Source: Bacilli bacterium
Lineage (GTDB): Bacteria > Bacillota_I > Bacilli_A > RF39 > UBA660
Reading direction: 5' to 3'
Assembly: GCA_017484065.1 (NCBI GenBank)
Contig: JAFUTX010000013.1
Coordinates: 1-64,000 of the forward strand
Length of the DNA stretch: 64,000 nt
Shown: in pieces, positions 21,753-53,121 of the stretch
Layout: the number at the start of each line of letters is the position of its first letter
Numbering within the stretch: the first letter of the stretch is position 1
Notes under the pieces: generated by a model
What the model was told of the DNA's origin: nothing
Database searches by the model: none
The model's input: the letters and a program-made list of their open reading frames with translations, nothing else
Made by a program: the position numbers and the translations under genes

Positions 21753-21815
21753 TTTTACTTTCCTCCATATCATAAAAATATCATATTATTAAATATATAA
21801 CAATATTTTTTTTCT

Positions 21816-23527: not shown

Positions 23528-23548
23528 AGTTTACCTCCTTTTTATTCT

Positions 23549-24925
23549 TTATATTGATAATTGATATGGATTAGTAGATGTTCCTGCTCCTCCAGTTATT
23601 TTAACATTTGATTTTAAATACAAAACAGGACGAACACCTTTATCTTGACTTGATGTAGTATCTACAACATATCCATTTGAATTTATATAAACAGTCCAGC
23701 TAGAAGAATCGTGTGCTTTAGTTAACGTCCATTGGCTGTTACTAGTGTCAATCAACCAATCTTCTGTATAACAATCATTATAATTAGATAGTGCTTTAGT
23801 AAGACATGAAGCCCTTAATGAACCGCCAACGGCAAATCCATAATCACTTGGATATAGTAATCCAACAAAAGAACTATAGCTTGATTGCCTATTACTATAT
23901 GTTTTATTACTTCTTTCTGCTTGATACCATTGGCTAGCATTTATACTTTCCACATAATCATTATTCTCTTCAGTTGTTGATGAATATCCTCCTAAATAAT
24001 ACATTGCTTTATCAATTAAATTTTTATTATTTAAAGAATTATAATACTCATTATTTAAATAATTATATAGTGACGAAGATTGCCAAGCAGTATCTCCCAG
24101 ATTCCATTTCATTTCTCCCAAACTACTATTTAAAATTATTTTCATTCTTTTTTCTTTAGTGCCATTACCATCATCTACATTATTCATAACACCAATAATA
24201 CGCCATAACTCTCCATTAAATGATACATAATTATTAGGATTAGCTCCAATATATCTTAAGTTGTTATCACTTGTTCCATCGTAAGCTAATGATGTGTCTC
24301 CTTTTTCATATAATCTTGTTATAACCTCTGTAGCTTGATCCCAAAATACTCCATCATCATCTAGAGGTCTTTCTTCATCTTCACTTTCATAACCATAATT
24401 ATAAAATGCTATTAAATTAACACCACTAGCAATGCTGCCATTTGTACTTATAACTTCACCATTTAAATCTTCATCAGAATAAACTTGATCACATAAACAT
24501 GTTGATATACCAGCAGGCTTATCACTTGAGAAAGTTGGGTTCTCATCATTTATATTAACCATTCCAGAATTGCCAATACTACCATCTTTATTAGCGATTA
24601 CATATTTCTTTATTAATTTTCCATTTTGTTTAGTTAATAGTACGCTACCTTCATAACCATCAGAAACACCTTTTTCATAGTAACCGTTTTGTTTTAAATA
24701 TTCCATAGATACACAAACACTATCATTATTTATCATGTTACCTTGATTAGCAGCATATGCTACTTCCGCTGACTTAACTAACGTTTTACCTTCATCAACA
24801 AGGGCTTTATTTTTACTTTTTCGCATAGTAGGAAGTATTGCTACTACAGCAATTAGCATAATTATTCCAAGTATTGCAATTACTGCTAATAATTCTACTA
24901 ATGTAAAACCTTTTTGTTTTTTCAT
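23549..24925 (-). CDS. Large prepilin with C-terminal lectin-like/DUF6273-like domain
   Basis: In this 458-residue protein the prepilin signal MKKQKGFTLVELLAVIAILG and the shared pilin blocks (DEGKTLVKSAEVAYAANQ, VCVSMEYLKQNGYYEKG) occupy about the first 140 residues. From about residue 230 a second domain follows: LRYIGANPNNYVSFNGELWR, later YPSDYGFAVGG, QWTLTKAHDSSSW and GVRPVLYLKSNVKI. The second domain is shared with the SipW-type proteins at 32920-38454 and 51241. Its C-terminal loop here is AT-rich, unlike the GC-rich loops in those at 32920 and 36082. The start at 24925 has AGGAGG 6 bases upstream. It is probably a pilus-borne adhesin. Confidence 0.82.
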   Translation of the reverse strand: MKKQKGFTLVELLAVIAILGIIMLIAVVAILPTMRKSKNKALVDEGKTLVKSAEVAYAANQGNMINNDSVCVSMEYLKQNGYYEKGVSDGYEGSVLLTKQNGKLIKKYVIANKDGSIGNSGMVNINDENPTFSSDKPAGISTCLCDQVYSDEDLNGEVISTNGSIASGVNLIAFYNYGYESEDEERPLDDDGVFWDQATEVITRLYEKGDTSLAYDGTSDNNLRYIGANPNNYVSFNGELWRIIGVMNNVDDGNGTKEKRMKIILNSSLGEMKWNLGDTAWQSSSLYNYLNNEYYNSLNNKNLIDKAMYYLGGYSSTTEENNDYVESINASQWYQAERSNKTYSNRQSSYSSFVGLLYPSDYGFAVGGSLRASCLTKALSNYNDCYTEDWLIDTSNSQWTLTKAHDSSSWTVYINSNGYVVDTTSSQDKGVRPVLYLKSNVKITGGAGTSTNPYQLSI

Positions 24926-24935
24926 ATTTTGCCTC

Positions 24936-26267
24936 CTATTTTTGGAATATATCATCGACATCAGTTATACCTTTACTGACAATTTTCTTATAAACTTTTG
25001 GTACATAATCATAAAGAATATATTCACCATCTACTTCGCCATTTTCGGTTAAACCTTTTTGTTTAAATGCAAATATTTCTTTTAGTTCAATATTATAGTC
25101 TTCTTTAATTCTTGTTAATTCACAAATACTAGTTACTTTTCTCTTACCATCGCTCATACGATCGATATTTACAACTATATCTAAAGCATTAAAGATGTAT
25201 TCTCTTACCGCCTTAATTGGAATATCAATCCCACTCATTAAAACCATCGTTTCAAGTCTATGTAAGGCATCTTCAGGGCCATTAGCATGGAGTGTAGTTA
25301 GAGACCCATCATGACCTGTATTCATTGCTTGTAACATATCAAATGCTTCTTTACCACGAACTTCTCCAACAATTATTCTATCTGGTCTCATACGAAGAGA
25401 ATTAATAACTAAATCTCTTATAGTTACTTCTCCTTCACTTTCATAATTCATCATTCTTGTTTCCAAACTTATAACATGTCCTTGATTTAACTTTAATTCA
25501 GCAGCATCTTCAATTGTTATAATACGTTCATCATGATTAATAAACGAACTCAAAACATTTAATAATGTAGTTTTACCACTACCAGTACCACCGCAGACTA
25601 AGATGTTTAATTTAGCTTCTACTGCCGCTTTTAAAAATCTAGCCATATATGGAGTCATTGACCCAATTCTAATAAATTCATCAATATCTGCCATGCTTTC
25701 TTTAAACTTACGAATAGTTACAACTGGTCCTTTAGTAGATAATGGTGGTATAACTGCATTAATACGACTACCATTTTCTAATCTAGAATCTACCATTGGA
25801 TTAGAAGCATCAATAGTTCTACCCATTGGTTGAATCATTCTTTGTACAGTTCTAATAATGTGTTCATCATTAATAAAACTAATGCTATCATCTTTAATTA
25901 TTTGGCCATCTATTTCGATATAAACCTCTTTAGGAGAATTAACCATTATTTCAGTTACATTCTTATCTTCTAATAACTCTGATATTGGTCCATAACCATT
26001 TATCTCATTATCAATTAAATTAAATAAATGACTTCTCTCTAAATTAGTTAAATCGTAACCTTCAATAGTAGCATCAATCTCATCATTAATCCATTCGTTA
26101 AGCAGTTTATCTTGAGGCATTTCTTTGTCAATTAGATTTTCTACTATTTTAGTTCTTAAATTATCTAATAGTTTTTTATCGGGAAATATATCGTAATCAG
26201 AAACAGAAGTTATATTATGAGTTTTATGTTCTATTTCAAATGCTTTACTAAGTCCACCTCTACTCAT
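24936..26267 (-). CDS. tadA: Tad pilus assembly ATPase TadA (CpaF)
   Basis: The 443-residue secretion motor has an N-terminal domain ([20 protein letters not shown]) and a C-terminal ATPase with Walker [18 protein letters not shown], the Asp box, and the Walker B/His box region [19 protein letters not shown] and [15 protein letters not shown]. These are hallmarks of the CpaF branch of the GspE/VirB11 ATPases. It overlaps the TadZ gene by 8 bases, with GGAGG just before its ATG. It should hydrolyse ATP to drive pilus assembly at the TadB/TadC platform. Confidence 0.93.
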
Positions 26268-27060: not shown

Positions 27061-27078
27061 TTCATCACCTTTTATTCT

Positions 27079-28593
27079 TTATATTGATAATTGATATGGT
27101 TGTGAACTTGTACCTTGCCCACTAATTATTTTTACATTAGATTTTAAATACAATACTGGATATATATTATAATTATAAACAGAATCATAAGAATCAACAT
27201 TATAAAATATTGCAATAACTCCATCATCATTAGAACTAGGTGTCATTGTCCATTGATTATATTTGATCCATTTATTATTCAAACAAGATGAATAAGCGCT
27301 ATCATTCCATTCATATAATGATGAGGTTGAACACGCTGAACTATTTATTGCAGAGTAACCATAATCACTTGGATATATTAGTCCTACATAACCAGTCCAG
27401 CTAGTTGGATTACCATTATATGTGTTACCACTTCTTTCTGATTGATACCAATTAGATCTAGACATAGTTTTGTAGTCAGTAGAAGAACTAGACGTATAGC
27501 CGCCTAAATAATAAGTTGCCTTATCTATATAATTTCTATATTGAGAAAATAACCCATGTACTTTTTTTGAGTGTTCTTGATATTCAAAACTAAAATAATT
27601 CCATCTTGGTGTCCAAGAATTTTCCCCTTTATAAAGATCTCCAAATGCCATAAAATCGGCAGTGCCACTTTCATAATATAAATCCATTAATCTCTGAGTA
27701 GTTGACCCAACCCAATTATTACCATATTTCTCATTTTCTACACATGCACATTGAGAACAAGTCGTCTTCGTACATTCGTGATTCCACACCATATCGCCAA
27801 TAGGTACATCTTTAATTAATTTAACTCTTGTTTCACCAGCACTACTACTTGTTGATGATCCTTTAACATTATTCATAACCCCAATAATACGCCATAATTC
27901 ATTATTAAATGATACATAGTTATTAGGAGTTGCTCCTATATATCTTAGGTTATTATCACTTGTTCCATCATAAATAAGCGAAGTATCTCCTTTTTTATTC
28001 AGATTAGTAATATAATTTGAGGCTATAGTATTATCTATTATAGAACCATCACTATTATAAGCAATATTATAAAAAGCCACTTGGTTAACTCCACTAGCAA
28101 TGCTCCCATTTGTACTTTTAACTTCACCATTTAAATCGTCAGTTTTACTTACTTGATTACATAAACAATTTGAGATATTTTCACTTTTTGAAAAACTAAA
28201 TGTAGGGTTTGTATCACTATAATCAACCATACTTGATGAACCAATGCTACCTTCCTTATTTGATATAGCATATTTCTTAATTAGTTTACCATTTTGGTTA
28301 GTTAAGAGTACACTGCCTTCGTAACCATCAGAAATTCCTTTTTCATAATAACCATTCTGTTTTAAGTATTCCATTGATATACATACGCTTTCATTATCAA
28401 GCATATTGCCTTGATTAGCAGCGTAAGCAACCTCTGCTGATTTAACTAATGATTTACCTTCGTCTGTTAATGCATTGTTTTTTGCTTTTTGATTAGTAGG
28501 TAATACCGCTATTACAGCAATTAATATTATAACAGCAAGTATTGTAATAACCGCTAATAATTCAACTAATGTAAATCCATTTCTTTTTTTCAT
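27079..28593 (-). CDS. Large prepilin with C-terminal lectin-like/DUF6273-like domain
   Basis: The 504-residue protein is a close paralogue of the prepilin at 23549. Residues 1-140 carry MKKRNGFTLVELLAVITIL, DEGKSLVKSAEVAYAANQ and VCISMEYLKQNGYYEKG; Asn replaces the usual Lys or Arg before the Gly. The C-terminal domain runs from LRYIGATPNNYVSFNNELWR to YPVLYLKSNVKI. It has an extra insert with clustered Cys (CTKTTCSQCACVE, about residues 287-300) that could bind metal or form disulfides. It sits inside the Tad operon between the TadE-like genes and tadZ, so it is most likely a minor pilin or tip adhesin. Confidence 0.82.
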   Translation of the reverse strand: MKKRNGFTLVELLAVITILAVIILIAVIAVLPTNQKAKNNALTDEGKSLVKSAEVAYAANQGNMLDNESVCISMEYLKQNGYYEKGISDGYEGSVLLTNQNGKLIKKYAISNKEGSIGSSSMVDYSDTNPTFSFSKSENISNCLCNQVSKTDDLNGEVKSTNGSIASGVNQVAFYNIAYNSDGSIIDNTIASNYITNLNKKGDTSLIYDGTSDNNLRYIGATPNNYVSFNNELWRIIGVMNNVKGSSTSSSAGETRVKLIKDVPIGDMVWNHECTKTTCSQCACVENEKYGNNWVGSTTQRLMDLYYESGTADFMAFGDLYKGENSWTPRWNYFSFEYQEHSKKVHGLFSQYRNYIDKATYYLGGYTSSSSTDYKTMSRSNWYQSERSGNTYNGNPTSWTGYVGLIYPSDYGYSAINSSACSTSSLYEWNDSAYSSCLNNKWIKYNQWTMTPSSNDDGVIAIFYNVDSYDSVYNYNIYPVLYLKSNVKIISGQGTSSQPYQLSI

Positions 28594-28601
28594 CCTATCA
28601 C

Positions 28602-28982
28602 CTAATCTTTGTTAAATATAAATTTATCTTCTTGCTTTTCTCCAATCATATTTATTTTTATTTCATATTTTTTTAGCCCAATAATTGTCCCAAAAATACT
28701 ATCTATTTCATAATCATTTTTTATAGCTATTTTATTATCAGACACTCTTATCTGTAACTTAGATGTATCTATATCATTCTTTTGATATAGCTTACTTATC
28801 TTATCATTGATAGCACTATCAAATCTTTCATCATAAACGCTCCTAATTATTGTTTTAGTAGTGCTGTTAAGCTTTGTATTTTCTTTGATAATTAACCCCG
28901 TATCAACTATAAAAGCCAGTAACATAACAAATAATGGAATTAATATTATAAAAAACACTAATGTTTGTCCCTTATTATTCAT
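28602..28982 (-). CDS. TadE/TadF-like pseudopilin
   Basis: The 126-residue protein has the N-terminus MNNKGQTLVFFIILIPLFVM, a Tad-type signal with a Gly-Gln junction and a single hydrophobic helix, then a small soluble domain. The Glu usual at +5 of the mature protein is replaced (TLVFF), which may affect processing. It overlaps the upstream TadE-like gene by 8 bases. The family supplies minor pseudopilins needed for Flp pilus assembly. Confidence 0.75.
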   Translation of the reverse strand: MNNKGQTLVFFIILIPLFVMLLAFIVDTGLIIKENTKLNSTTKTIIRSVYDERFDSAINDKISKLYQKNDIDTSKLQIRVSDNKIAIKNDYEIDSIFGTIIGLKKYEIKINMIGEKQEDKFIFNKD

Positions 28983-29322
28983 AAGGTATCACCCGATCAA
29001 CTTCAATTTTATAATCGCTTCCTAATATCAAATTAAGACCTGGAGTAATAATATCTAATTGTTTTTCTAATTTAAAAACAACATATTCATTATTACTATT
29101 ACTTACTTTAAGCTCAACATCCTTGTTATTTAAACTTACCTTCTTAGTTATTTCATCATAACTTTTATTGCTTTCATAATCAGTTACAACCTCATCCATA
29201 ATACTTTCTAAATTATTTTGATTATACATAATTTTACCTATGTCAATTCCACATAATAAAAGCATTACAAACACTGGTAAGATAATAACAAACTCAACTA
29301 ATGCTTGCCCTTTTTTATTCAT
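28975..29322 (-). CDS. TadE-like pseudopilin
   Basis: The 115-residue protein starts MNKKGQALVEFVIILPVFVM, a textbook TadE signal (GQALVEF, Glu at +5) and hydrophobic helix, followed by a soluble domain of about 80 residues. It is encoded 11 bases after the Flp-pilin gene and overlaps the next TadE-like gene. It is expected to be a minor pilin in the same machine. Confidence 0.85.
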   Translation of the reverse strand: MNKKGQALVEFVIILPVFVMLLLCGIDIGKIMYNQNNLESIMDEVVTDYESNKSYDEITKKVSLNNKDVELKVSNSNNEYVVFKLEKQLDIITPGLNLILGSDYKIEVDRVIPYE

Positions 29323-32919: not shown

Positions 32920-34452
32920 CTAATATATAATGTAAGGATCAGTTGTAGTACCAGAACCACCAGCTATTTTAACTGTGGATTTCAGATAAAGAACTGGACG
33001 CACGCGATAAACGTTGTCCACGTTGTCGTCGAGGCTGACATATCCGTCGGTGCCCACAGAAACCGCATAGTCAGAGCCAGAGGCGCTTGGAGTTATTGTC
33101 CATTGATAATAACTGCTATCTAATAACCAGTCGTTATTTTTGCAATCACTTACATCATTACTATCCCAATTATATAATTCTTTAGCCATACACGCAGTTC
33201 TGTTTGTAGTAGTTTCTCCAGCTGTTGCATAACCATAATCACTTGGGTACATAAGAGCTACTACTCCTGTCCAACTAGTTGGATTACCACTGTAGACATT
33301 GCTACTTCTCTCAGCACTATAGTAATCATTTGCTGTCATTGTTTCATAATAATACTCTGCACTATCATCTTCTTGTGGTCCACCTAAATAGTAAGTTGCA
33401 GCTTCAGCTAAGCTTTTATCATAACTTCTAATACCAATATTAGTTAAATCAAATTTATTCCAACCAACATTTGCTTGTCCTCTTAATTTTCCATAATTGA
33501 ATTCTGTTGATACTGTTCTATTTAAATATGCAGAATTAAGAAGTGTTTTTAATGTTGCTTCATTCCAATTATTGTAATAATCTCCTTCGCTACATGTTCC
33601 ATTCCCTTGTAAATCACATTCAGCATCCCAATAGATATCACCTAATTCATCAGCTTTTATTATTTTTACTCTAGTTGCAGCATTACCACTCACAGTACCA
33701 CCATCTACGTTATTCATAACACCTATAATACGCCATAGTTCATCATTAAACCATACATAATTATCAGGATTAGCTCCGACATATCTTAAGTTGTTGTCAG
33801 TAGTTTCATCATATAAAAGTGATGTATCTCCATTAGTTTTTAATGCTGTTATGTAATCTACTGCAGTAGTAGATCCTGCATTATAATAAGAAGCACTAAT
33901 ACTAATTACACCTTTATATTGTTTATTTACCATAGTTTGTGGAGTATTCTCATCTAACCATAATCTAATAGTATGTTCATTAGTATCTAACGGATGTAAT
34001 ACTTTAGTAACTATCTTTCTTGTATCATAAGCAGTGCCTACACTACTATCTAATACTGAATCAGTAGTATTTAAACTTGCTAAATTACCATATATTACTC
34101 CATCTATCGATACTTTAATATATTGCAGATTAAGTCGATTAGCTGATGATACACTATCTAATCCTTCAATATTAATATCATAATTAAGTAAATTATCACA
34201 TGTATTTTCAATAGTAAATGTATGTCCTTCAGTACTATTACCATCAGTATCACTAACTGGTACTAGATTAGAAAAATCTATTTCTTCTGTTAAAGTTTCT
34301 ATATTATAATCTAAACAGTTAGCTGCTACTATACTATTAGTACCATTTTGACTATCACTAGTATTCCATAAAGCATAAGTAATACCTGCTACTAAAACAA
34401 TAAGTAATAATACTATTATTGATATTGTAAGTTTCTTTTTATTATCTTGCAT
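32920..34452 (-). CDS. SipW/TasA-type surface protein with a GC-rich variable C-terminus (likely DGR target)
   Basis: The 510-residue protein has an N-terminal signal/anchor (LTISIIVLLLIVLVAGITYA then LWNT) of the kind seen in SipW-processed TasA/camelysin-like proteins. A beta-rich domain follows (about residues 40-190; NCLDYNIETLTEEIDF, FTIENTCDNLLNYDINIEGL). The shared C-terminal domain begins at LRYVGANPDNYVWFNDELWR and ends in QWTITPSASGSDYAVSVG and RVRPVLYLKSTVKI. About 100 bases before the RPVLYLK segment are strikingly GC-rich, against an AT-rich gene. The domain resembles C-type-lectin or DUF6273-like folds; the ligand is unknown. Confidence 0.78.
   Translation of the reverse strand: MQDNKKKLTISIIVLLLIVLVAGITYALWNTSDSQNGTNSIVAANCLDYNIETLTEEIDFSNLVPVSDTDGNSTEGHTFTIENTCDNLLNYDINIEGLDSVSSANRLNLQYIKVSIDGVIYGNLASLNTTDSVLDSSVGTAYDTRKIVTKVLHPLDTNEHTIRLWLDENTPQTMVNKQYKGVISISASYYNAGSTTAVDYITALKTNGDTSLLYDETTDNNLRYVGANPDNYVWFNDELWRIIGVMNNVDGGTVSGNAATRVKIIKADELGDIYWDAECDLQGNGTCSEGDYYNNWNEATLKTLLNSAYLNRTVSTEFNYGKLRGQANVGWNKFDLTNIGIRSYDKSLAEAATYYLGGPQEDDSAEYYYETMTANDYYSAERSSNVYSGNPTSWTGVVALMYPSDYGYATAGETTTNRTACMAKELYNWDSNDVSDCKNNDWLLDSSYYQWTITPSASGSDYAVSVGTDGYVSLDDNVDNVYRVRPVLYLKSTVKIAGGSGTTTDPYIIY
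32979..33105 (-). other. Candidate DGR variable region A
   Basis: Between the conserved CAATGGACAATAACT and CCAGTTCTTTATCTG the coding strand carries codons such as AGC, GGC, GAC, TAT, TCT, AAC, GTT and CGC, far richer in G and C than the rest of the gene. It can be aligned with regions B and C but has one more codon. The differing positions are mainly NNY codons, as expected when AAY codons of a template are mutagenised at A. It lacks the RAD block of B and C, so it may have another template or be older. Confidence 0.65.
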
Positions 34453-34471
34453 ACAACTTTCTCCTTTTTAA

Positions 34472-36010
34472 TTAAATTCTTAATGTATATGGATTATTTT
34501 TTGTTCCTTCTCCACTTAAGATTTCTACTGAAGATTTAAGATAAAGTACTGGTAACACTCCCATTTCATAATAAGCTGATATTGGGAATATATAAGAGTC
34601 TCCCTCAATAACAAAATTATCGCTATAACCTGTACTTCTAGGTGTTAATGTATGAGAAATACTATCATCAAGCCAATTTGAATCCCATGTACAATCCTTT
34701 TTGTTTTTCCATTCATACAAAGCTATATCAGTGCAACGATTGCCAGATACAGTGGCATTAGACGCAAATCCATAATCACTTGGATACATTAATGCTATTA
34801 TACCAGTCCATGTTAAATCATTATTTTCTCCTTTATTTGTTCTTTCAGCAACATAAAAATCTCGTGCAGCTGCAGTGTTTTCATCTTGAGTAATAGGAGC
34901 CCCTAAATAATAAGTAGCAGGCTCTATAATATTTCTACTTTCTTCTTTAATTCCTTTAGATGTAAAATCATAATAATACCACGGATATTGAGAACTGGAC
35001 GGATAACTAATTGAAGAAGCATATAAATAGTATGCAGCAGAACCACGTTGAACACCAGATTTTTTATTAAATAAATATGCATCATTTAATAAATTTGCAA
35101 GTGTTGATTGTGCCCAATTGTTTGAATAATCAAAGTCAGGTGCTAAACAACCACCCTCTTTTTCTACACATTTAGAATCATAAGCTACGTATAGTAAATT
35201 AGGACCGATAAGTTTAACTCTAGTAGCATTTTCTCCGCTTGACTCGCCACCATCTATATTGTTCATTACACCAATAATACGCCATAACTCATCATTAAAT
35301 AATACATAATTATTAGGATTTTTCCCTACATATCTTAAATTATTATCACTTGTATTATCATATTCTAATTCAGAATTCTTGTTATTATAAAGTTTTGTAA
35401 TATATGCTGTAGCATTTTCACCAACATAATCTAGCATAACACTACCATTCAATGTTACCTTCCCTTGCCAAGTTTTACCTATTTCACTCTTTGGCGTTGT
35501 TTCATCCAGCCATATTTTTATTGTGTGTGTTTTATTAATATTTTTATTTGCTGGATCTAATATTCCTGTATATATTTTTCTTGAGTCATAACTTACATTA
35601 TTATTTAATAAAGAAGTAGTTTTATCAAGCGTACCTAGTAATCCAACCTTATCATTGTCAATACTAACATTCATATAGTTAATGTCAAAATAGTCAGAAG
35701 AGGGTAAACCATCTATATTTAGACTTTCTAAATTAACTTCATATTTAACAGCAGTTTCACAATTATTAACTATACTAAATGTATAACCAGGTAGAAACTC
35801 ACTTTCGCTATCAATTATAGGAATAGCATCATTTAAAGTAATGCCACTAGATTCATCGGTGTAAGTGATATCTAAACATGACATAGCTGCTATATTCTTA
35901 TTAGTTTGTTTAGTTTTTGTACTCCACACAGCATATGTAGAACCTAGTGATATTATTATAATTGTAACTATAACTATTAATACTATTATTTTTTTAGATT
36001 TAGAATTCAT
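34472..36010 (-). CDS. SipW/TasA-type surface protein, AT-rich (non-variable) paralogue
   Basis: The 512-residue protein has the same layout as its neighbours: signal/anchor KIIVLIVIVTIIIISLGSTY followed by AVWST, a TasA-like domain (SCLDITYTDESSGITL, FSIVNNCETAVKYEVNLESL) and the shared C-terminal domain (LRYVGKNPNNYVLFNDELWR through GVLPVLYLKSSVEI). The loop before the final strand is AT-rich with ordinary codons (HTLTPRSTGYSDNFVIEG), so it shows no sign of retro-mutagenesis. One Arg of the RPVLYLK motif is changed to Leu. It is a useful internal control for the GC-rich loops on both sides. Confidence 0.8.
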   Translation of the reverse strand: MNSKSKKIIVLIVIVTIIIISLGSTYAVWSTKTKQTNKNIAAMSCLDITYTDESSGITLNDAIPIIDSESEFLPGYTFSIVNNCETAVKYEVNLESLNIDGLPSSDYFDINYMNVSIDNDKVGLLGTLDKTTSLLNNNVSYDSRKIYTGILDPANKNINKTHTIKIWLDETTPKSEIGKTWQGKVTLNGSVMLDYVGENATAYITKLYNNKNSELEYDNTSDNNLRYVGKNPNNYVLFNDELWRIIGVMNNIDGGESSGENATRVKLIGPNLLYVAYDSKCVEKEGGCLAPDFDYSNNWAQSTLANLLNDAYLFNKKSGVQRGSAAYYLYASSISYPSSSQYPWYYYDFTSKGIKEESRNIIEPATYYLGAPITQDENTAAARDFYVAERTNKGENNDLTWTGIIALMYPSDYGFASNATVSGNRCTDIALYEWKNKKDCTWDSNWLDDSISHTLTPRSTGYSDNFVIEGDSYIFPISAYYEMGVLPVLYLKSSVEILSGEGTKNNPYTLRI

Positions 36011-36043
36011 ACTTCTAATTCCTTTCTATTGAGTTTTGAAAAA

Positions 36044-36074
36044 GTGCCGGCGCGACGCCGCCCCGCAGCGGCAC
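36044..36074 (-). repeat. GC-rich hairpin just downstream of variable region B
   Basis: A 31-base segment with 27 G or C. GTGCCG at 36044-36049 pairs with CGGCAC at 36069-36074; alternatively two small hairpins form inside (CGGCG/CGCCG and GCCGC/GCGGC). It starts 8 bases after the stop of the gene at 36082 and is followed on the minus strand by TTTTT. DGR target genes often carry such a hairpin or cruciform just after the variable region. An unusually GC-rich terminator is the alternative. Confidence 0.7.
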
Positions 36075-36081
36075 GTATATA

Positions 36082-38454
36082 TTACACCCCTAATTGATAT
36101 GGTTGTGCACTTGTTCCTTGACCGCTCATAATCTTCGTCGTTGACTTTAGATATAGGACTGGGCGAAGACCGAAAGCAAGGGACGTGCTGCCACTGTAGA
36201 CACTGCCACCAGTGTACACATAAGCCACATAGTACGCATTATCAGCACGCGAAGTTATTGTCCATTGGGATATTGAACTATTATATAGCCAATCGCCACT
36301 TCTACAATCTCTCACATAAGTAGCACCCCAATTATATAATTCTTTAGCCATACATGCACTTCTGTTTGTAGTAGTTCCTCCAGCTGTTGCAAATGCATAA
36401 TCACTTGGGTACATAAGAGCTACTACTCCTGTCCAGCTGGTTGGATTACCACTATATACTGCACTACCTCTTTCTATAGTAGAGTACCAAGTATTAGCTG
36501 TTGCGTATAGATAATAATTGCTAGCTGATGAAGTAACAGAATATCCTCCTAAATAGTAAGTAGCTTCTTCTAATAGGTTTCTGCTAGCTTCACTTAAACC
36601 ATTACTACTATAATCAGCATATTGCCAACTATTATTTATATAATTATATGTAGTTGATGTTGTTCTATTTAAATATGCAGTATTTAGTAATGTGTTTACA
36701 CTTGCTGTTTCCCAGTTGTTATTATATGAGATAACTGATGTATCAGTTGATGTTCCACATGAATTATCTCCCGCTAAACGTTTTCTATCCCATGATATAT
36801 CACCTAAACTATCATTTCTTATTATTTTTACTCTAGTAGCTTTATCTCCTGAAGCAGTACCACCATCTACGTTATTCATAACACCTATTATACGCCATAA
36901 TTCACCATTAAATGATACATAGTTTTTAGGATTTCTGCCTACATATCTTAAGTTATTATCGCTTGTTCCATCATATACTAAACTGGTATCACCATTGTTA
37001 TATAAAGATTTTATATATCTAGTTGCATTTCCATTTTTAATTGGAGTCTCTGTTTTAATTTTATATGGATTACTTTTTGTACCGTTGCCATCAGCTACTA
37101 CTACTGAGGACTTCAGATAAAGGACTGGCCGCACGCCAAAACCGTTACCCGTGTCGTTGTAGCTGACACTGCCGCTAGTGCCCACACGAGTCACATAGCT
37201 CGCACCATCAGCACGCGGTGTCATTGTCCATTGATTATAAGAACTATTAAATATCCAACTACCATTAGGGCAAAAATTCTTATTACTATAGTCAACGCCT
37301 TGCGTTGTACTCCAAGATTTTAACCCGATTTTTAAGCAATCAGATAAATCACTACCATATTCAAGTCCATCACTTGAAGCAAGCTTTAATCCAGTTGTTG
37401 AAAAACCATAATCACTCGGATACATCAAACCTATTTTGCCAGTCCATGTAGTTGGATTACCACTATATATATCAGTACCTCGCTCAGCCGTATAAAAGCC
37501 ACTTGCAGTCAAATCTGTTCTATAGCTTCCCAAGTTATAAACTGCATCAGCTATGTAATCTTTGTTATTTAAACTATTATAATAATCCCCATTTAAATAA
37601 GTATTTAATGTGGCTGTTGCCCAATTATTTTTATTGTTAGAAGCCCATTGATAACCGCCTATACTATCAGCTCTAATAATTTTTACTCTACTTTCTTTAT
37701 TACCTGTACCATCATCTATGTTATTCATAACACCTATAATACGCCATAACTCATTATTAAACCAAATATAGTTATTAGGGTCTCTACCAATAAAACGTAG
37801 GTTATTATCTACTGTTTCATCATATCTTAAATTAGTTTTATCTTTTTTAGCTAGTTTAGTTAAATAAGTAGTAAATAATTCTTTATTAGTTGCAACACCA
37901 TATACCGTTACTTTACTATTATATAGTTTACCTTGTTCACTATTAGGAGCACTATTATTTAGCCACAATTTAAGTTCATAGTTTTTACTTTCTCCTGCTG
38001 CTAAATACTCAGTAGATAATATTCTAGTATCATAAGCTTCACCTGATTCTAAGTTAGAATCACCTTCTGGAAAGAATCCTACTATATCTTTGTCTATTAA
38101 AGCATCATCTGAATATAAAGCTACTTTAATATGATTAATATCCGCTCTATTTTCACTTGCTATTTCACTTAAGCTTTCTAAATTAATATTATATCTAACT
38201 GTACTAGTACAATCATTATGAATAGTGAATTTATAACCAGACTTATTTATACCAACATCATCAGGAGTTGGTACTTCATTAGCAAGTACTATATCATCAC
38301 TTTCATTTTCTATAGCTAAGTTAATACATGCTGCTGCTACTTCATCTTGTTCATCTATATTCTTATTTACTTGCCATAAAGCATAAGTAGTTCCTAATAC
38401 TCCTAATATAAGTATTGCTACTAAACAAATTATTATTTTTTTACGATTATTCAT
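36082..38454 (-). CDS. SipW/TasA-type surface protein with two C-terminal domains and two GC-rich variable loops (likely DGR target)
   Basis: The 790-residue protein has an anchor (KIIICLVAILILGVLGTTYA then LWQVN), a TasA-like domain to about residue 195, then the shared display domain twice. The first runs from LRFIGRDPNNYIWFNNELWR to GVRPVLYLKSSVVV, the second from LRYVGRNPKNYVSFNGELWR to GLRPVLYLKSTTKI. Each ends in a GC-rich loop: QWTMTPRADGASYVTRVGTS in the first and QWTITSRADNAYYVAYVYTG in the second. A tandem domain with two variable loops is unusual. Polyvalent display on the cell surface is inferred. Confidence 0.78.
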   Translation of the reverse strand: MNNRKKIIICLVAILILGVLGTTYALWQVNKNIDEQDEVAAACINLAIENESDDIVLANEVPTPDDVGINKSGYKFTIHNDCTSTVRYNINLESLSEIASENRADINHIKVALYSDDALIDKDIVGFFPEGDSNLESGEAYDTRILSTEYLAAGESKNYELKLWLNNSAPNSEQGKLYNSKVTVYGVATNKELFTTYLTKLAKKDKTNLRYDETVDNNLRFIGRDPNNYIWFNNELWRIIGVMNNIDDGTGNKESRVKIIRADSIGGYQWASNNKNNWATATLNTYLNGDYYNSLNNKDYIADAVYNLGSYRTDLTASGFYTAERGTDIYSGNPTTWTGKIGLMYPSDYGFSTTGLKLASSDGLEYGSDLSDCLKIGLKSWSTTQGVDYSNKNFCPNGSWIFNSSYNQWTMTPRADGASYVTRVGTSGSVSYNDTGNGFGVRPVLYLKSSVVVADGNGTKSNPYKIKTETPIKNGNATRYIKSLYNNGDTSLVYDGTSDNNLRYVGRNPKNYVSFNGELWRIIGVMNNVDGGTASGDKATRVKIIRNDSLGDISWDRKRLAGDNSCGTSTDTSVISYNNNWETASVNTLLNTAYLNRTTSTTYNYINNSWQYADYSSNGLSEASRNLLEEATYYLGGYSVTSSASNYYLYATANTWYSTIERGSAVYSGNPTSWTGVVALMYPSDYAFATAGGTTTNRSACMAKELYNWGATYVRDCRSGDWLYNSSISQWTITSRADNAYYVAYVYTGGSVYSGSTSLAFGLRPVLYLKSTTKIMSGQGTSAQPYQLGV
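36141..36267 (-). other. Candidate DGR variable region B
   Basis: On the coding strand it lies between CAATGGACAATAACT and CGCCCAGTCCTATATCTAAAG. Compared codon by codon with region C (both 32 codons), fixed residues are R, A, D, A, Y, V, V, T, G, S, V, T, F, G, R, P. The changed codons are pairs such as AAT/GGT, TAC/AGC, GCT/ACT, TAT/CGT, TAC/GGC, GGC/AAC and AGC/GAC. Most keep the third base and differ in the first two, the signature of mutated AAY codons. Confidence 0.72.
37107..37233 (-). other. Candidate DGR variable region C (internal)
   Basis: This is the end of the first display domain of the same protein. I count 59 G or C in the 96 bases from CCGCGT to CCAGTC (about 61%), against well under 35% in flanking coding sequence. 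It aligns without gaps to region B. Because the reading continues into a second domain, this would be a variable region located inside a gene rather than at its 3' end. Confidence 0.72.
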
Positions 38455-38548: not shown

Positions 38549-38583
38549 GAAAAAAAGTAATAGTTTTACTCATCTATTACTTT
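38549..38583 (-). terminator. Terminator of the polysaccharide operon
   Basis: AAAGTAATAG at 38554-38563 pairs with CTATTACTTT at 38574-38583, followed on the minus strand by T-rich sequence. It ends the run of genes from 49056 down to 38566. Confidence 0.8.
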
Positions 38584-40914
38584 ATACCAATCTTTCATTA
38601 TTTTATCTTTAGTATACTCATTACTTCTTTCTAATGATTTTTGATGATAATGATTATATAGCTTTTTATCAGTAGTTAAATTAATAAGATGCTCTGCTAA
38701 TAATCTTTCATTATCAGTAATATCATTAATATTATGTTCATTTATAAAACTTGGGATTAATATACCATATTCACTATCTATTATTTCACCAGAGCCACCT
38801 GGAGCATCAGTAGCAATAACTGGCGTACCACAAAACATTGCTTCAATCAAAGCATTAGGAAATCCTTCATAATCACTAGCTAAAACAAAAGCTTTAGCTT
38901 TATTTAGATATTTATATGGGTTAGTTGTAAATCCACCAAATGTAACATATTTTTCTAATCTTTTTTGCTTTACTAATTCTTTTAAATTATCTAATTCTTT
39001 ACCTTTACCTAATATAAGTAAATGAGCATTTTTATTCTTCTTAATTACTAAAGACATAGCTTTAATAACATGATTATGTCCTTTATGAGGAACTAATCTT
39101 GCTACTGCTACTATTAAATCTTTTTTTAATAGCTCTTTATCAAAAGGTTCTTTTGTTTTTTCTTCAATAACTTTTGGGTCACAAAAATTAGTAATTACTC
39201 TTATCTTTTTAGGATTAGCATGATAATTAACTATTTGATCATCTTTAACACTATTACTACAACATACTATAGTATTACATAATCTAATAGATATTTTATG
39301 TAATCTAGTAGGTATTTCTCCTTCTTGTTTAGTAGATAAATGATTTCTAATAGATATAATAGTTTTATCTTTATATTTAGTAATCACATTATAAAAGTTA
39401 AATACAGTAGTATAACTAATAGATACATCAATATCATACTTTTTCTTTATTTTTCTTAATTTTCTAATCCCTTTATAGCGATGTTTTCTACTACCCAATT
39501 CATTTATTTCAATTATTGGTACATCACTTTCATAATCTTGATTTTCTTTACTAACTACTACTAAATAGACATTATGTTTTTTCTTTAATTCGTTAGCTAA
39601 CTTAATAATTGAATGTTCTGCTCCTCCATTAGTTAAATATCCAATTAATAGTAATATATTCTTCTTTTCTTTTCTATTGTTATTATCATTTAAAAACCCT
39701 AGTATTATCCAATAAATTGGAGCGACTAAAATAACACTTATATTAAAGAATGCTTGAATTAAATAAGTTATAAATGCTAGATATATGCCATAATGATGAC
39801 TATTTACAATATTTCTATTCTTTCTAATAGTTAATCTAATTAATAATAGATATGTTATTAAAGCAAATATACCTTCAGTAATAAATATTTGTAAATATTC
39901 ATTATGAGCTTTATCAAAACATTCATATTCATCATTAATTAAATAACAGATATAAGAACCATTATTAATAAAAGAAAAATTATCTATACCAATACCTGTA
40001 AGGATATTAGCTTGTTTTAGACTATGTTCCCATACATATACTCTACCATTGCCTAAACTTTCAATTTTCTCTTTGCTATTTATATTAGTTAAACTAGTAA
40101 TATCTTTTTTTATAGTATAGGTAATTCTATTATTAACAAAGGTATTAAATATTAAAATAATAACTATAAATATTACAGAACTAGCTAATACTTTTTTATA
40201 ATTATTCTTATTTATTCTTTTAATAAATGTATAAATTAATAATAAGATAAATGCTAATAAACAACTTTGAGTATTACCTATAACTAGGCCATACCCAAAA
40301 ATAAATGTATATATTAAATACTTTATTTTTTCTTTTTTATTTAATAGCAAATTACCAAAAGAATATGATAAACACATTAAGATATAAGTTGAATAAAAAT
40401 TAGGATTAGCAAATGTCCCACTAGCAAATTTATAGTGAGCACTCCAATTGTAACTACGATCATACCCAAATATATTCTCTATTCTTAATATTTGAATTGT
40501 ACCAAGTATTATTTGATAGAATCCAAAGAATAATACTAATGATAATATTTTATGTTGTTTATCTTTATCTAAAGTAGTTGATAGTAAGTATATTGAATAA
40601 TAGGATAATAACATTAATAAACCTTCGAATCTACCATTAGAACCTATTAATGCTACTGTTTTGTTATAAGCAAATACATATGATATAAGAGCAAATAATG
40701 ATAAAAGAATAATTAATATATAATTAGATTTATTCTTATATATTATCTTATTTAAGATATATAGTATTAATGAAATAATACCAAATGTTATTATGCCTAT
40801 AGAAATATATAAACTACTAAAATCAAATATGCATTTTAAAGTAGAAGATACATTAAAAAATATAATTAATAATACTAAAAGGTAAAAAGAAGTTGGTTTA
40901 ATTATTTTTTTCAT
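38566..40914 (-). CDS. Fusion of an O-antigen polymerase/ligase-like membrane protein and a GT4-type glycosyltransferase
   Basis: In this 782-residue protein residues 1-410 form about ten membrane segments and match the protein at 19849-21123 (RVYVWEHSLKQ, GIGIDNFSFINNG, CFDKAHNEYLQIFITEG). From about 418 a GT-B glycosyltransferase follows (LIGYLTNGGAEHSIIKLANE, LILGKGKELDNLKEL, ASDYEGFPNALIEAMFCGTP). The two activities are normally on separate chains. No stop or shift lies at the joint, and the linker is charged (NNNRKEKKN). It overlaps the upstream gene by 4 bases (ATGA) and is the last gene of the operon. It probably couples chain growth with polymerisation or transfer. Confidence 0.8.
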   Translation of the reverse strand: MKKIIKPTSFYLLVLLIIFFNVSSTLKCIFDFSSLYISIGIITFGIISLILYILNKIIYKNKSNYILIILLSLFALISYVFAYNKTVALIGSNGRFEGLLMLLSYYSIYLLSTTLDKDKQHKILSLVLFFGFYQIILGTIQILRIENIFGYDRSYNWSAHYKFASGTFANPNFYSTYILMCLSYSFGNLLLNKKEKIKYLIYTFIFGYGLVIGNTQSCLLAFILLLIYTFIKRINKNNYKKVLASSVIFIVIILIFNTFVNNRITYTIKKDITSLTNINSKEKIESLGNGRVYVWEHSLKQANILTGIGIDNFSFINNGSYICYLINDEYECFDKAHNEYLQIFITEGIFALITYLLLIRLTIRKNRNIVNSHHYGIYLAFITYLIQAFFNISVILVAPIYWIILGFLNDNNNRKEKKNILLLIGYLTNGGAEHSIIKLANELKKKHNVYLVVVSKENQDYESDVPIIEINELGSRKHRYKGIRKLRKIKKKYDIDVSISYTTVFNFYNVITKYKDKTIISIRNHLSTKQEGEIPTRLHKISIRLCNTIVCCSNSVKDDQIVNYHANPKKIRVITNFCDPKVIEEKTKEPFDKELLKKDLIVAVARLVPHKGHNHVIKAMSLVIKKNKNAHLLILGKGKELDNLKELVKQKRLEKYVTFGGFTTNPYKYLNKAKAFVLASDYEGFPNALIEAMFCGTPVIATDAPGGSGEIIDSEYGILIPSFINEHNINDITDNERLLAEHLINLTTDKKLYNHYHQKSLERSNEYTKDKIMKDWYKVIDE

Positions 40915-42521
40915 TTAAACACTCCTTTATACCAATTTTGAAAGACATAATAATTCCATATAACTAGGGCTTTATTATAATTTGGTTCTTGTTCAAAATC
41001 ATTAAACAAACTAATTAATTCATCATAGATAAATAATCCTTGTTTATCTATAAATTCTTTAGTACTTAGTTTTCTAGCTTCACTAACAAATACATCTTTG
41101 CACCAAATATTAGTTGGTATTCCAAATCCTTTCTTTTTGTATTCTGAAAAATATTTTTCAGGAATATTATTATATAATATTTTATTAAATATATATTTAC
41201 CTTTGTTATTACGATGCATTTTATTAATATTTATTTCAAATGTCTTTTTTAATATATCGATATCAAAATAAGGAGTATAATTTTTTATTCCATAATAATT
41301 AGCTAACGAAGTTGTTTTTACTTTAAATTTTTCAGTAACAGTATTTAGTAAATCAAAAAGAATTATATTCCTAACTTTACTATCTACTTTTTTTACTTTT
41401 TTACATTTACCTCTTACCCCTACTATTTTGTCAGAAAAATTAAATCTAGCTAAAATATTAACTTGCGCATATTCACTATAATTATGATATACTCTTTTTT
41501 TACATCTAATATTAACCAGTTTTTTAGATATTTGTTTAAAATGATTTATACCATAAATATTATACATACTAGAATTAGCAAACATGGCATCACAACTATC
41601 ACCAGTAATAATAAAATCATTTTTATCTTTTATATGACTAAATAGATAAGTACTTGGTAATATTGATGGATCAGCAAATGGTTCATCATAAACCTCTCTT
41701 ATGATATTCATAAGTCCTACTAAATCTTTCTTCTTTACTTCATAACTTTTATTACTTACCCCAATATATTTAGCTATTCTTTTAGAATATACAGATTCTT
41801 TATTCCCATCTTCAAAGTTAGCAGTATAAGTATTTACATTATTATATAAATCTTTTGATAATTTAGTAAGAAGAGAAGAATCGGTACCACTACTTAAAAA
41901 TACCCCAATATTACTATTTTTATTACCTATCTTCTTTAAAGAATTAGTAAAAAGATTAGTAAATTCTTCTATTAAAGTATCATCATCAGTATTTAACTTT
42001 TTATTATTTTCTTTAAAAAACTTATATAAATCAAAATAAATATTTTCTTCTAAATTGTTATTAGAATACTTAATATATGAACCTTTCTTTACTTTAAAAG
42101 TATTTTTAAATATGGTATATGGTTCATAAATATATGTATATCCTAAAAAGTTACTTAATACTTGTTTATCTATCTCCTTTGTAAAGTTCTTGCTATTAAT
42201 TATTTGCCTTAATGATGTAGAGAATATTAATTCATTATCATTATAATAATAATATAAGAAAGTTGTACCAAGTTTATCTTTAATTAAATATAATTCATCT
42301 TTATCTTTATCATATATAACTATAGCAAAATTACCATCCAATTCTTTAATAAACTCTATTCCTTTAGTAATATAAGAATCTCTAATATATTCTTCTATAT
42401 TACTATTTACATTAAATATAGTACCTTTAATATATACAAATAGATTATTATAATTTACTTTTCTATTATTAACTTTAATTATTTTATTATTTAAATTAAA
42501 ATTACCTAGTATATCTTTCAT
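40911..42521 (-). CDS. Asparagine-synthetase-like amidotransferase without the N-terminal Cys
   Basis: The 536-residue protein has an N-terminal Ntn-hydrolase-like domain (FIKELDGNFAIVIYDKDKD, KLGTTFLYYYY) but starts MKDILGNFNLNN, so the catalytic Cys2 of asparagine synthetase (MCGI) is missing. The C-terminal synthetase domain has the PP-loop IGVFLSSGTDSSLLTKL and DEPFADPSILPSTYLF. It should adenylate a carboxylate but cannot obtain ammonia from glutamine by the usual route. It resembles the glutaminase-dead members that join amines to acids, such as beta-lactam synthetase. It is paired with a paralogue, probably acting on a cell-surface glycan. Confidence 0.75.
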   Translation of the reverse strand: MKDILGNFNLNNKIIKVNNRKVNYNNLFVYIKGTIFNVNSNIEEYIRDSYITKGIEFIKELDGNFAIVIYDKDKDELYLIKDKLGTTFLYYYYNDNELIFSTSLRQIINSKNFTKEIDKQVLSNFLGYTYIYEPYTIFKNTFKVKKGSYIKYSNNNLEENIYFDLYKFFKENNKKLNTDDDTLIEEFTNLFTNSLKKIGNKNSNIGVFLSSGTDSSLLTKLSKDLYNNVNTYTANFEDGNKESVYSKRIAKYIGVSNKSYEVKKKDLVGLMNIIREVYDEPFADPSILPSTYLFSHIKDKNDFIITGDSCDAMFANSSMYNIYGINHFKQISKKLVNIRCKKRVYHNYSEYAQVNILARFNFSDKIVGVRGKCKKVKKVDSKVRNIILFDLLNTVTEKFKVKTTSLANYYGIKNYTPYFDIDILKKTFEININKMHRNNKGKYIFNKILYNNIPEKYFSEYKKKGFGIPTNIWCKDVFVSEARKLSTKEFIDKQGLFIYDELISLFNDFEQEPNYNKALVIWNYYVFQNWYKGVFK

Positions 42522-42529
42522 TTCATCAC

Positions 42530-44080
42530 CTACAACATATACTTACTATACCATAATTGAAAAATATAGTAAGAAAATAAAATATATAATTCATTATTAT
42601 TTAATAAGTCATTCTTTAAATTATTTATATATGTATTTACTATATCATATTTAAATATATTTTGTTTTTCTAAGAACTCTTTAGTAGAAAGTTTTTCAAT
42701 ATCACTTAAAAATATATCGTTTAACCACTCTTTTAAAGGAATACCAAATCCTTTTTTAGTCGCATCAAATTCTTCTTTATCTATATACTTATATAATACA
42801 TTTTTAATGATATATTTCTTTTCTTTTTTATAATATTTATATTTTTGATTAATTTTTAAAGAATAATCTAATACATTTATATCACAAAATGGATGAGCTA
42901 TATTATTATCATAATACATAGCTGGCAAGCTAACTTTAGGTAGTAATCTATTAGATAAAAAACACTTAATATCATATAACATATAACATAAACGTTTATT
43001 ATATTTTAAATGACGATATTTATCATAATATTCCGGTTCAATTCCCATAAATTGTTTAACATAATATAACTTAGGATTATAAGGCGTATAGGTTTTATCC
43101 TTCTTTAGTAAGCGATACATAAAGCTAAAATATTTATGATGATATAAATTAGAACCGCAAAACATCTGGTCTGAGCCATCCCCACTTAAAATGATATCAC
43201 TATCATTAACTTTAGAATTTAAAAATGTCATCGGAATAATTGAATAATCTGATAGAGGTTCACTATATATATCAACTATCTTTTCTACTACATTTTTAAC
43301 ATCTTCTTTTGTAAAATAAAATGTATGATGATTAGTATTTAAATATTTACTAAATTTTTCCGCATGAGTAGATTCATCTTTACTACTATCTTTGTATCCT
43401 ATTGTATAAGTATTTACAATTTGGTCATCCAATTTGTATTTCATAACTATGCTAGTAATTAATGTTGAATCTACTCCACTAGAGAAGTATATTCCTATGT
43501 TTTTTTTACCTTTTATTCTTAGTTTAGTAGCATCTATTAAACTATCCTCTACTACTTTTTCACATTCATTATAATCTCTTGTAGTATTTTTATTATTTTT
43601 AAATTCTTCTATTAAATCGTAATACCTATAACTCTTATTATTAACTAAATAACAACCACTTTCTATTTTTTTTACTTCATTAAAAATAGTTAATGGTTCA
43701 TTTATATAATTATAGTTTAAATAATTAGCTACTGTTTGTTTATTAATAGTTAATTTATCTTTATAATTATTAATAAAATAATTTAAAGAATTAGATACAA
43801 TTAATTTATTGTCTATATTCGAATAATATAATAATTTAGATCCTAATCTATCTCTAACACATATTAACTTATTCTTATATACCATGATAATAAAATATTC
43901 GCCATTCAATTTATCAAATAATGATGTTCCATATTTTTCATATAAATTAATTAAATCATCTTTATTATAATTATAAATATTACCATAGCAATAACAATAA
44001 TTATCTTTATATTTAACTAACTTTTTATTAATATATACATTTATATTCTTTTTATCTTTAATAGCTGTTATATCAATCAT
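42530..44080 (-). CDS. Asparagine-synthetase-like amidotransferase without the N-terminal Cys, second copy
   Basis: The 516-residue paralogue of the downstream gene has the N-terminus MIDITAIKDKKNINVYINKK, again with no Cys2. The Ntn-like part has FDKLNGEYFIIMVYKNK and DRLGSKLLYYS; the synthetase part has IGIYFSSGVDSTLITSIVMK, SEPLSDYSIIPMTFL and ILSGDGSDQMFCGSN. The two proteins are clearly related but diverged, so they may act on different substrates or as a heteromer. The gene lies 2 bases from the ABC transporter gene and 8 bases from its paralogue. Confidence 0.75.
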   Translation of the reverse strand: MIDITAIKDKKNINVYINKKLVKYKDNYCYCYGNIYNYNKDDLINLYEKYGTSLFDKLNGEYFIIMVYKNKLICVRDRLGSKLLYYSNIDNKLIVSNSLNYFINNYKDKLTINKQTVANYLNYNYINEPLTIFNEVKKIESGCYLVNNKSYRYYDLIEEFKNNKNTTRDYNECEKVVEDSLIDATKLRIKGKKNIGIYFSSGVDSTLITSIVMKYKLDDQIVNTYTIGYKDSSKDESTHAEKFSKYLNTNHHTFYFTKEDVKNVVEKIVDIYSEPLSDYSIIPMTFLNSKVNDSDIILSGDGSDQMFCGSNLYHHKYFSFMYRLLKKDKTYTPYNPKLYYVKQFMGIEPEYYDKYRHLKYNKRLCYMLYDIKCFLSNRLLPKVSLPAMYYDNNIAHPFCDINVLDYSLKINQKYKYYKKEKKYIIKNVLYKYIDKEEFDATKKGFGIPLKEWLNDIFLSDIEKLSTKEFLEKQNIFKYDIVNTYINNLKNDLLNNNELYILFSYYIFQLWYSKYML

Positions 44081-44082
44081 TA

Positions 44083-46837: not shown

Positions 46838-46862
46838 ACTACCTATTCTCCTTCATACATTA

Positions 46863-48014: not shown

Positions 48015-48027
48015 TTAAATCACCTAA

Positions 48028-49056: not shown

Positions 49057-49110
49057 TGTAATACATCCTCAATATCTATCTTATCAAATATATAGAAAAA
49101 GGACAAACAA

Positions 49111-51240: not shown

Positions 51241-53055
51241 CTATTTTGATAATGTATAAGGTTTTAAAGAAGTCCCTTCTCCACCATCTATCTTAACTTC
51301 TGAATCAAGATATAATACTGGACGAATATTCCATGAGTAATATGCTGTTTTTGAACTCAAATTAGAATCATCATATATAAATGCTGCAGCTGTTCCATCA
51401 ATACGAGATGGTGTTATAGTCCATTGTGAATGATCAGCATTGCCTAGCCAATCTTCATCACGACATTCTTGAGACCAATGAGCAATGTCACGTTCAACAC
51501 AAGCAGTTTCATAAACTACCCCAGTTGAAGCATAGCCATAATCACTTGGATACATTAAAGCAATATTGCCTGTCCAGGAACCTGGATTGCCTTCATATAC
51601 ATAAGACGTATTTCTTTCAGCAACATACCATTCTGGTGGTAGCATATTAGAGTAATAACTATCGTATTTAGATTTAGTACTATAACCTCCTAAATAATAT
51701 GTAGCAGTATCTATTAAATTCTTATCAGACAAATTTCCATAGTAATCTGCTCCATTTAAATAAGCATTGGTAGAACTATGTTCCCAGTTATTATAATTGT
51801 ACCCGGTAGCTTGAGTAGCAGAATAAGCATAATTTAATAATAAATCAGCTTTAGCAATTTTTAATCTAGAATGCCCAGCCACACTAGTTGTTCCACCAGC
51901 AACATTATTCATAACCCCTATAATACGCCATAATTCTCCATTAAATGAAACATAGTTATTAGGATTAGCTCCGACATATCTTACATTATGATCTGTTGTT
52001 CCGTCATCAATAAGAGAAGTATCTCCCGCGGTTTTCAAACTCATTACATAATCTGTTGCAATTGCAGGTAAAGACATACCAGGAGTAGATGATGAAGTAG
52101 TAGCTAATGCTCTTTCTAAGTATATAACGTCACTTGTACTTAATACTCCATCTAAATCTATATCTCCAAGTACCTTAATTAATGGATTAGCAGTAGTTAA
52201 GTTTTTTCTTAAAACATATACATCGCTACGATCTACTACTCCATCATTATTTACATCACCTTTTTTATATAATGATGATGAACTACCAGAAATATAATTC
52301 TCTACTGCAGTACTATCATTACTATTAATTACTCCATCAGCATTAACATCTGCTAATGATTTTTGACTTGTAGAAGCAGAACTTGGACTAGCTATTATAC
52401 CAGATAATATAGATGAATCATCAGAATTAACTTCTCCATCTTTATTGATATCTCCCATCTCATACAATGGATATGATTTTTCATTAGCATTTTCTCCACT
52501 TATAGTTATTTTACCGCTATAACTTTTATTCATTTCACTTGTAGGAGCATACTTATCAATCCATAGTCTTAACTTATAAGTTATTGTATAACCTTCACTT
52601 CCTACTGGTGATAATACTCCGCTAGTTAATGCCTTGGCATCATCTGCTACTGTATTAGCAAGTATTTGTATGCCATTATTATAATTTGATAATAATTCAA
52701 CTGGTTCATCATCTAATACAGCATTAATGCTTGATAGTTGTAACCTATCGTTATTAATTAAACTTTCCAAGTTTACGGTATATGCAATATACCCATCACA
52801 TCTATTTGTCAATGTGAATTCATATCCTTCTAAGTTCATTCCTTCTTCATCACTTATTGGATAAGTACTAGATAGTTTTACACCTGTTTTACCTACTACA
52901 GTATCTTTGAATTCTAGACTTAAACATGTTGTTCCTACTACGTTTTCATCTTCTTGTGTTTGAGTTGTAGTCCAATATGCATATGTACTACTTAAAACTA
53001 CTATAGCCAATAATAAAACAGTTAAAATATAATATTTTACTTTATTATTTTTCAT
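51241..53055 (-). CDS. SipW/TasA-type surface protein with dockerin-like repeats and the shared display domain
   Basis: The 604-residue protein has the N-terminus KYYILTVLLLAIVVLSSTYA then YWTT, like other SipW-type anchors, and a TasA-like domain (about 40-195). Four calcium-binding loops follow: GDINKDGEVNSDD, ADVNADGVINSND, GDVNNDGVVDRSD and GDIDLDGVLSTSD, i.e. two dockerin type I modules. The shared C-terminal domain runs from VRYVGANPNNYVSFNGELWR to NIRPVLYLDSEVKI. Its last loop is AT-rich, so no DGR signal. The start at 53055 has GGAAGG upstream. Dockerins normally bind cohesins; none is visible here. Confidence 0.82.
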   Translation of the reverse strand: MKNNKVKYYILTVLLLAIVVLSSTYAYWTTTQTQEDENVVGTTCLSLEFKDTVVGKTGVKLSSTYPISDEEGMNLEGYEFTLTNRCDGYIAYTVNLESLINNDRLQLSSINAVLDDEPVELLSNYNNGIQILANTVADDAKALTSGVLSPVGSEGYTITYKLRLWIDKYAPTSEMNKSYSGKITISGENANEKSYPLYEMGDINKDGEVNSDDSSILSGIIASPSSASTSQKSLADVNADGVINSNDSTAVENYISGSSSSLYKKGDVNNDGVVDRSDVYVLRKNLTTANPLIKVLGDIDLDGVLSTSDVIYLERALATTSSSTPGMSLPAIATDYVMSLKTAGDTSLIDDGTTDHNVRYVGANPNNYVSFNGELWRIIGVMNNVAGGTTSVAGHSRLKIAKADLLLNYAYSATQATGYNYNNWEHSSTNAYLNGADYYGNLSDKNLIDTATYYLGGYSTKSKYDSYYSNMLPPEWYVAERNTSYVYEGNPGSWTGNIALMYPSDYGYASTGVVYETACVERDIAHWSQECRDEDWLGNADHSQWTITPSRIDGTAAAFIYDDSNLSSKTAYYSWNIRPVLYLDSEVKIDGGEGTSLKPYTLSK

Positions 53056-53121
53056 AAACACACCTTCCTCTATTATTACTATTTAACTATAACAAATTTT
53101 TTAAATTATAGCAAGATAACT

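Follow-up and report, generated by a model that had tools for sequence, protein, structure and literature searches.

Evidence for a chromosomal diversity-generating retroelement with dispersed DUF6273 targets in an uncultured gut Bacilli bacterium

Introduction

We analyzed 64,000 nucleotides of chromosomal DNA from an uncultured gut Bacilli bacterium (hereafter, the window), in which three GC-rich segments of DUF6273-family genes, named regions A, B, and C, are very probably variable repeats (VRs) of a chromosomal diversity-generating retroelement (DGR) with dispersed targets. Several described systems resemble it in part. The DGR of Bordetella phage BPP-1 (mtd, avd, brt) combines a DGR-type reverse transcriptase (RT), an avd helix-bundle gene, and differences between template repeat (TR) and VR that are limited to adenines; its retrohoming requires a hairpin after the target (PMC3240598), and a structured spacer has a role corresponding to that of the RNA element reported below (PMC12875486). 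In cyanobacteria and in Thiohalocapsa PB-PSB1, one machinery is associated with lectin-fold variable genes elsewhere in the genome, and loci without an RT and targets with more than one VR occur (PMC7517822, PMC10907252). Remote targets and trans activity of DGRs were thus already known from these studies, as were multiple VRs and TRs (PMC6642488), and a published survey states that its own contig-based method misses remote targets (PMC8144416). DUF6273 is itself a published DGR target, described as lectin-like, in Faecalibacterium prophage proteins and phage tentaclins (PMC11792537, PMC10743442).

The system described here shares with BPP-1 a DGR-type RT, an Avd-like gene, adenine-only TR/VR differences, a hairpin past the stop codon of a target (here that of region B), and a structured RNA just 3′ of the TR. 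Unlike BPP-1, it lies on a bacterial chromosome, has an additional MutS_I-like gene, dispersed targets, and an RT gene split by a group II intron, and its 3′ RNA element precedes the accessory genes or adjoins a target instead of lying between TR and RT. The arrangement of one machinery with distant targets recalls the cyanobacterial and Thiohalocapsa DGRs, which belong to other phyla and have other target domain architectures; the stand-alone target-TR unit found in two genomes here (G000:C24 and G013:C35) sets the present system apart from them. The Faecalibacterium prophage targets and tentaclins also carry their VR in DUF6273, but they are phage proteins; the targets here are encoded on the chromosome, in the vicinity of Tad-pilus and polysaccharide genes, and have a hydrophobic segment at the N-terminus. 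The intron resembles known group II introns with an RT/maturase in its domains and encoded protein (RF02005, RF00029; TIGR04416) but is inserted, unlike those, in the YMDD codons of the RT of another retroelement. To our knowledge, an intron at this position and a covarying template element as a family-wide marker are new.

Results

Three GC-rich regions in two DUF6273-family genes

The window corresponds to C15:1-64000 of a 1.19-Mb draft genome (G000; 32 contigs, 93% complete) and has a GC content of 25.9%. Regions A, B, and C sit in two neighboring genes, B and C in one open reading frame (ORF):

32977..33102, minus strand: region A, predicted VR at the C-terminal end of gene 32920-34452; GC 0.51, against 0.32 for the gene
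36142..36267, minus strand: region B, predicted VR, C-terminal in the fused gene 36082-38454; GC 0.48
37108..37233, minus strand: region C, predicted VR, internal in gene 36082-38454
32920..34452, minus strand: target gene A, 510 aa, with an N-terminal hydrophobic anchor and a DUF6273-type C-terminal domain; aligned with 17 paralogues
36082..38454, minus strand: target gene B/C, 790 aa, with two tandem DUF6273-type domains bearing one VR each; Pfam PF19789, E=1.8e-6

A reading made from the sequence alone had singled out these regions for their raised GC, and its coordinates were correct to within a few bases. Over 127 nt, the GC fraction is 0.512 in A, 0.480 in B, and 0.559 in C, against 0.259 for the window, and a scan of the whole 64 kb found 127-nt windows with at least 50% GC in three places only, which coincide with A (32951-33123), B (36037-36228), and C (37062-37256). 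The central 90 nt of region C reach 61%. Cassettes with about twice the GC of the genome could be taken for products of horizontal transfer or for artefacts of composition, which we find scarcely credible: random replacement of adenines in AAC/AAT codons itself yields high GC, and probably did so here, the cassettes end at the VR borders while their flanks remain AT-rich, and the templates of relatives are local.

The adenine signature

The clean adenine-type partner of C is not B but the VR of a gene on another contig (C24:46.9k). Identity between these two genes is 57% in the body on either side of the loop and 74% within the loop. Its 22 differences are distributed 10/11/1 over the three codon positions, and 20 of them involve A, where 40% would be expected from composition (binomial p=1e-6); third positions account for 1/22 differences in the loop and 85/209 in the gene body (p=1.7e-4). 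Copies of a single template that have been mutagenised at adenines differ in just this way. The loops change faster than the rest of the family (mean column entropy 2.24, compared with 1.44 in the body), as they would if paralogous adhesins simply underwent diversifying selection or gene conversion with no retroelement involved. Such an origin is nevertheless a very improbable explanation in view of the third-position and adenine contrasts just given and of the DGR with the same target family present in this genome and its relatives. For the pairwise score, a null drawn from body windows was discarded, as homologous windows had contaminated it.

In agreement with the sequence-only reading, the alignment of B and C needs no gaps and shows a fixed framework. 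The same reading held that their codons differ mostly in the first two bases; to be added to this are differences at 7-8 third codon positions, so that B and C probably stem from related but different templates. The first part of the framework of B is common to C and C24:46.9k, and its 3′ part to C30:2.5k and C19:0.4k, with several third-position differences; its adenine-type pattern with C and C24:46.9k is partial. B is likely served by a template related to that of C. For A, no same-template partner VR was found; its closest paralogue, C18:15.4k, is 81% identical in the gene body and 40% in the VR. A similar drop separates C24:46.9k from C5:14.3k (90% in the body, 62% in the VR). Taken individually, C is very strongly supported as a DGR VR and B strongly, while the case for A, which rests on composition, position, family, and the fall in identity to its nearest paralogue, is well supported.

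DGR machinery on the contig of the window

The sequence-only reading had predicted a DGR-type RT beyond the window, and one lies on the same contig. On the minus strand of C15:113.4-117.1k, ~77 kb past region C, are a MutS_I-like gene (E=0.0017), a bAvd-like gene, and an RT gene matching PF00078. The RT is 361 aa long once spliced and contains IGNMTSQ and YMDD. The motif IGxxxSQ is the usual mark of DGR RTs. Homologues of this RT occur in cassettes with adenine-specific TR/VR pairs. The Avd-like gene matches PF22296 with E=5.2e-6 and 27 bits, which is under the curated cut-off of 40; it is in the expected place and is conserved in relatives. PF05635 had no match anywhere, controls included, and is hence uninformative.

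Some 210 bp separate the MutS-like gene from the end of contig C15 that lies upstream of it. In G001, a genome of the same genus, the order is target gene, TR, MutS-like, Avd, and RT, and the TR ends ~190 bp before the MutS-like gene. The most likely place for the cognate template or templates of A, B, and C is the assembly gap immediately upstream of the three machinery genes.

The motif GGTTCTCCGCGATTTAGTGGGGAGT, which looks like an insertion-element end, is repeated at the end of C15 (L005:13200-13343), at C19:1-150, and at C22:18.8k, close to two DUF6273 targets and the RT operon. It may explain the break in C15. Contig C19, with a VR gene facing its end and the same repeat as the end of the RT contig, was considered as a candidate for the missing junction; no template is present there.

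Template repeats in the genome and in relatives

The sequence-only reading had also called for a template that matches A, B, and C except at adenines. A template with such differences was found for a paralogous target, at C24 ~17283-17400 on the minus strand, directly downstream of the target gene, and none matching A, B, or C was found in the incomplete assembly. Between the C24 TR and its VR, 18/37 adenines are changed, compared with 2/77 other bases (p=5.5e-9). This template matches its own target only. Glycosyltransferase-like genes lie downstream of it and the RT is on a separate contig; genome G013 likewise has a stand-alone target-TR unit at C35 and its RT on C40. Searching the genome with the C sequence, a guessed template, the G001 template, and the RNA model described below gave the C24 copy as the sole assembled template.

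Relatives hold complete cassettes of target, TR, MutS-like, Avd, and RT genes. The TR/VR pairs of G001, G019, and the two loci of G026 together show differences at 71 template adenines and at 6 other bases, some of the 6 arising from a gapped alignment. Among 68 RT loci scanned in GTDB genomes, 36 had a clean pair, with 587/1165 adenines and 24/2272 other bases changed; these pairs were chosen for having at most 3 non-adenine changes, so that the adenine contrast is partly built in. The scan also caught tandem repeats with non-adenine differences, which were filtered out. At four loci, arrays of several TR-like repeats, each with its own RNA element, were seen upstream of one RT (L155:8069-9182, L170:3085-7067, L137:380-841, and L138:680-2280).

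A covarying RNA element and a target hairpin

Immediately 3′ of the TRs is a conserved RNA element of ~150 nt, located at C24:17146-17294 in G000 (L099) and present in L191, L140, and 30+ other loci. Of its 33 pairs, 30 show compensatory changes across 29 sequences, and 93.5% of cells pair, compared with 40-46% when the alignment is slid. Rfam gave no convincing family match to the element. The covariance model found two templates in G013, a genome outside its training set, and 34 copies in 33 further sources, several in tandem (four in L155 and four in L170); in G000 it found the C24 copy only.

A second structured feature follows gene B/C:

36044..36074, minus strand: GC-rich hairpin (GTGCCG...CGGCAC) directly past the stop codon of gene B/C, similar to DGR target-recognition hairpins

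The same hairpin also follows the stop codons of the targets at C24:17.5k, C30:2.5k, and C19:0.4k.

Insertions in the RT gene

The RT gene is split by a group II intron of 1914 nt at C15:113819-115732 (L005:9819-11732, minus strand), whose insertion point falls within the final YMDD codon (YMD^D). The intron matches RF02005 (139.9 bits), RF00029 (53.3 bits), and TIGR04416 (E=3e-98), and its Rfam 3′ domain ends exactly at the predicted 3′ boundary. In silico removal gives a continuous open RT of 361 aa with YMDD restored. A second species (L196) has a homologous intron, 10701-12597, at the same position of the YMDD codons; the two introns are 76% identical in DNA and 69% in protein, compared with 50% for the host RTs. 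YMDD is intact and open in 64/71 relatives checked. Two further RT genes (L184:1881-5273 and L194:1411-4835) are broken, both at LPIG^NMTSQ, by elements that carry three successive recombinase-like genes and resemble recombinase-in-trio elements. In the literature searched, we found no description of an intron at YMDD or of recombinase-type insertions in DGR RTs; a Trichodesmium twintron was considered as a precedent and set aside, as it sits in a different gene.

Active targets or relics

Several observations weigh against reading A, B, and C as DGR targets. No template matching any of them is in the assembly, a 93% complete draft whose RT contig stops where relatives keep the TR, and their comparison with 64 templates of relatives gave nothing beyond the general AAC-rich pattern. 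The GC-rich hairpin was not found after A or C, B and C differ at third positions as noted above, and an active RT depends on splicing of the intron. The missing template and hairpins and the interrupted RT ORF are also what would be seen if A and C, and perhaps all three regions, were frozen relics of earlier mutagenic retrohoming, with the template or hairpin lost or the RT silenced by the intron; several other paralogues with intermediate, AT-drifting loops would fit as well. We regard this explanation as possible yet doubtful. The GC of A, B, and C has not drifted to the 26% background, the RT exons are open after splicing with YMDD restored, an intact template is present elsewhere in the genome (C24), and the RT contig breaks at the position expected for a template.

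The reading of A, B, and C as DGR targets, first made from the sequence of the window, is supported by the RT locus, the C24 TR/VR pair, the cassette shared by C and C24:46.9k, and the cassettes of relatives. Within it, the hairpin suggests that B may be easier to target than A or C, both of which may be frozen. The placement of C inside and of B at the end of one ORF points to gene B/C being a fusion of two copies of one domain.

Target proteins and paralogues without the VR signature

Four paralogues in the window lack the VR signature, and their loops are AT-rich (GC 0.22-0.33), in keeping with their use as controls in the sequence-only reading:

34472..36010, minus strand: paralogue between the two targets; loop GC 0.315
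23549..24961, minus strand: pseudopilin-like DUF6273 paralogue in the Tad-pilus cluster; PF07963 N_methyl E=1e-9, weak PF19789; loop GC 0.32
27079..28593, minus strand: pseudopilin-like paralogue in the Tad-pilus cluster; PF07963; loop GC 0.22
51241..53061, minus strand: dockerin-bearing paralogue; PF00404 E=2e-16; loop GC 0.33

Protein A had no Pfam match. The AlphaFold2 model of its C-terminal domain (pLDDT 81.7, pTM 0.84) matched phage DUF6273 proteins in Foldseek and also resembled part of the Thomasclavelia ramosa IgA peptidase structure 9qa6; its resemblance to C-type lectins of solved structure was weak. The N-terminal hydrophobic segment suggests that the target proteins are membrane-anchored surface proteins.

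The genes carrying A, B, and C are flanked by a Tad-pilus cluster (21144-29322) on one side and a polysaccharide cluster (38566-50736) on the other. The former, a Tad/type II-like cluster, encodes T2SSE, two T2SSF, a CpaE-like ATPase, a TadE-like protein, and the two pseudopilin-DUF6273 type proteins listed above. In another genus, the gene adjoining a MutS-like/Avd/RT cassette (L086:525-2534, G002:C8) begins with a pseudopilin N-terminus, and a pilin-type protein may therefore be a DGR target there.

Discussion

We propose that the TR RNA, folded through its conserved 3′ element, would be copied by the RT with its Avd-like partner, and that misreading of adenines would give a mutated cDNA that replaces the matching VR in DUF6273 lectin-like genes across the chromosome. 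The resulting changes would fall mostly on first and second codon positions of loops predicted to bind ligands, possibly at the cell surface. A single RT locus, on the contig of the window, would act on distant targets, with at least one template adjoining its own target on another contig. Before any active enzyme could form, the group II intron would have to leave the YMDD codons of the RT mRNA.

We are evenly divided on a broader proposal, that a mobile group II intron is specialised in the YMDD codons of DGR RTs, making the activity of one retroelement hang on the splicing of another, and that many dispersed surface genes of the clade are rewritten by one RT with several templates, which occur in tandem arrays or stand-alone target-template units and all bear one covarying RNA element. 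As judged from the gene sequence, the catalytic site of this RT would exist only once the intron is spliced, which makes it a testable object, and the covarying element offers a way to find templates in loci without an RT. For the organisms themselves, the finding would mean that uncultured gut Bacilli with small genomes rewrite a family of lectin-like genes by means of a chromosomal DGR whose targets lie far from its RT.

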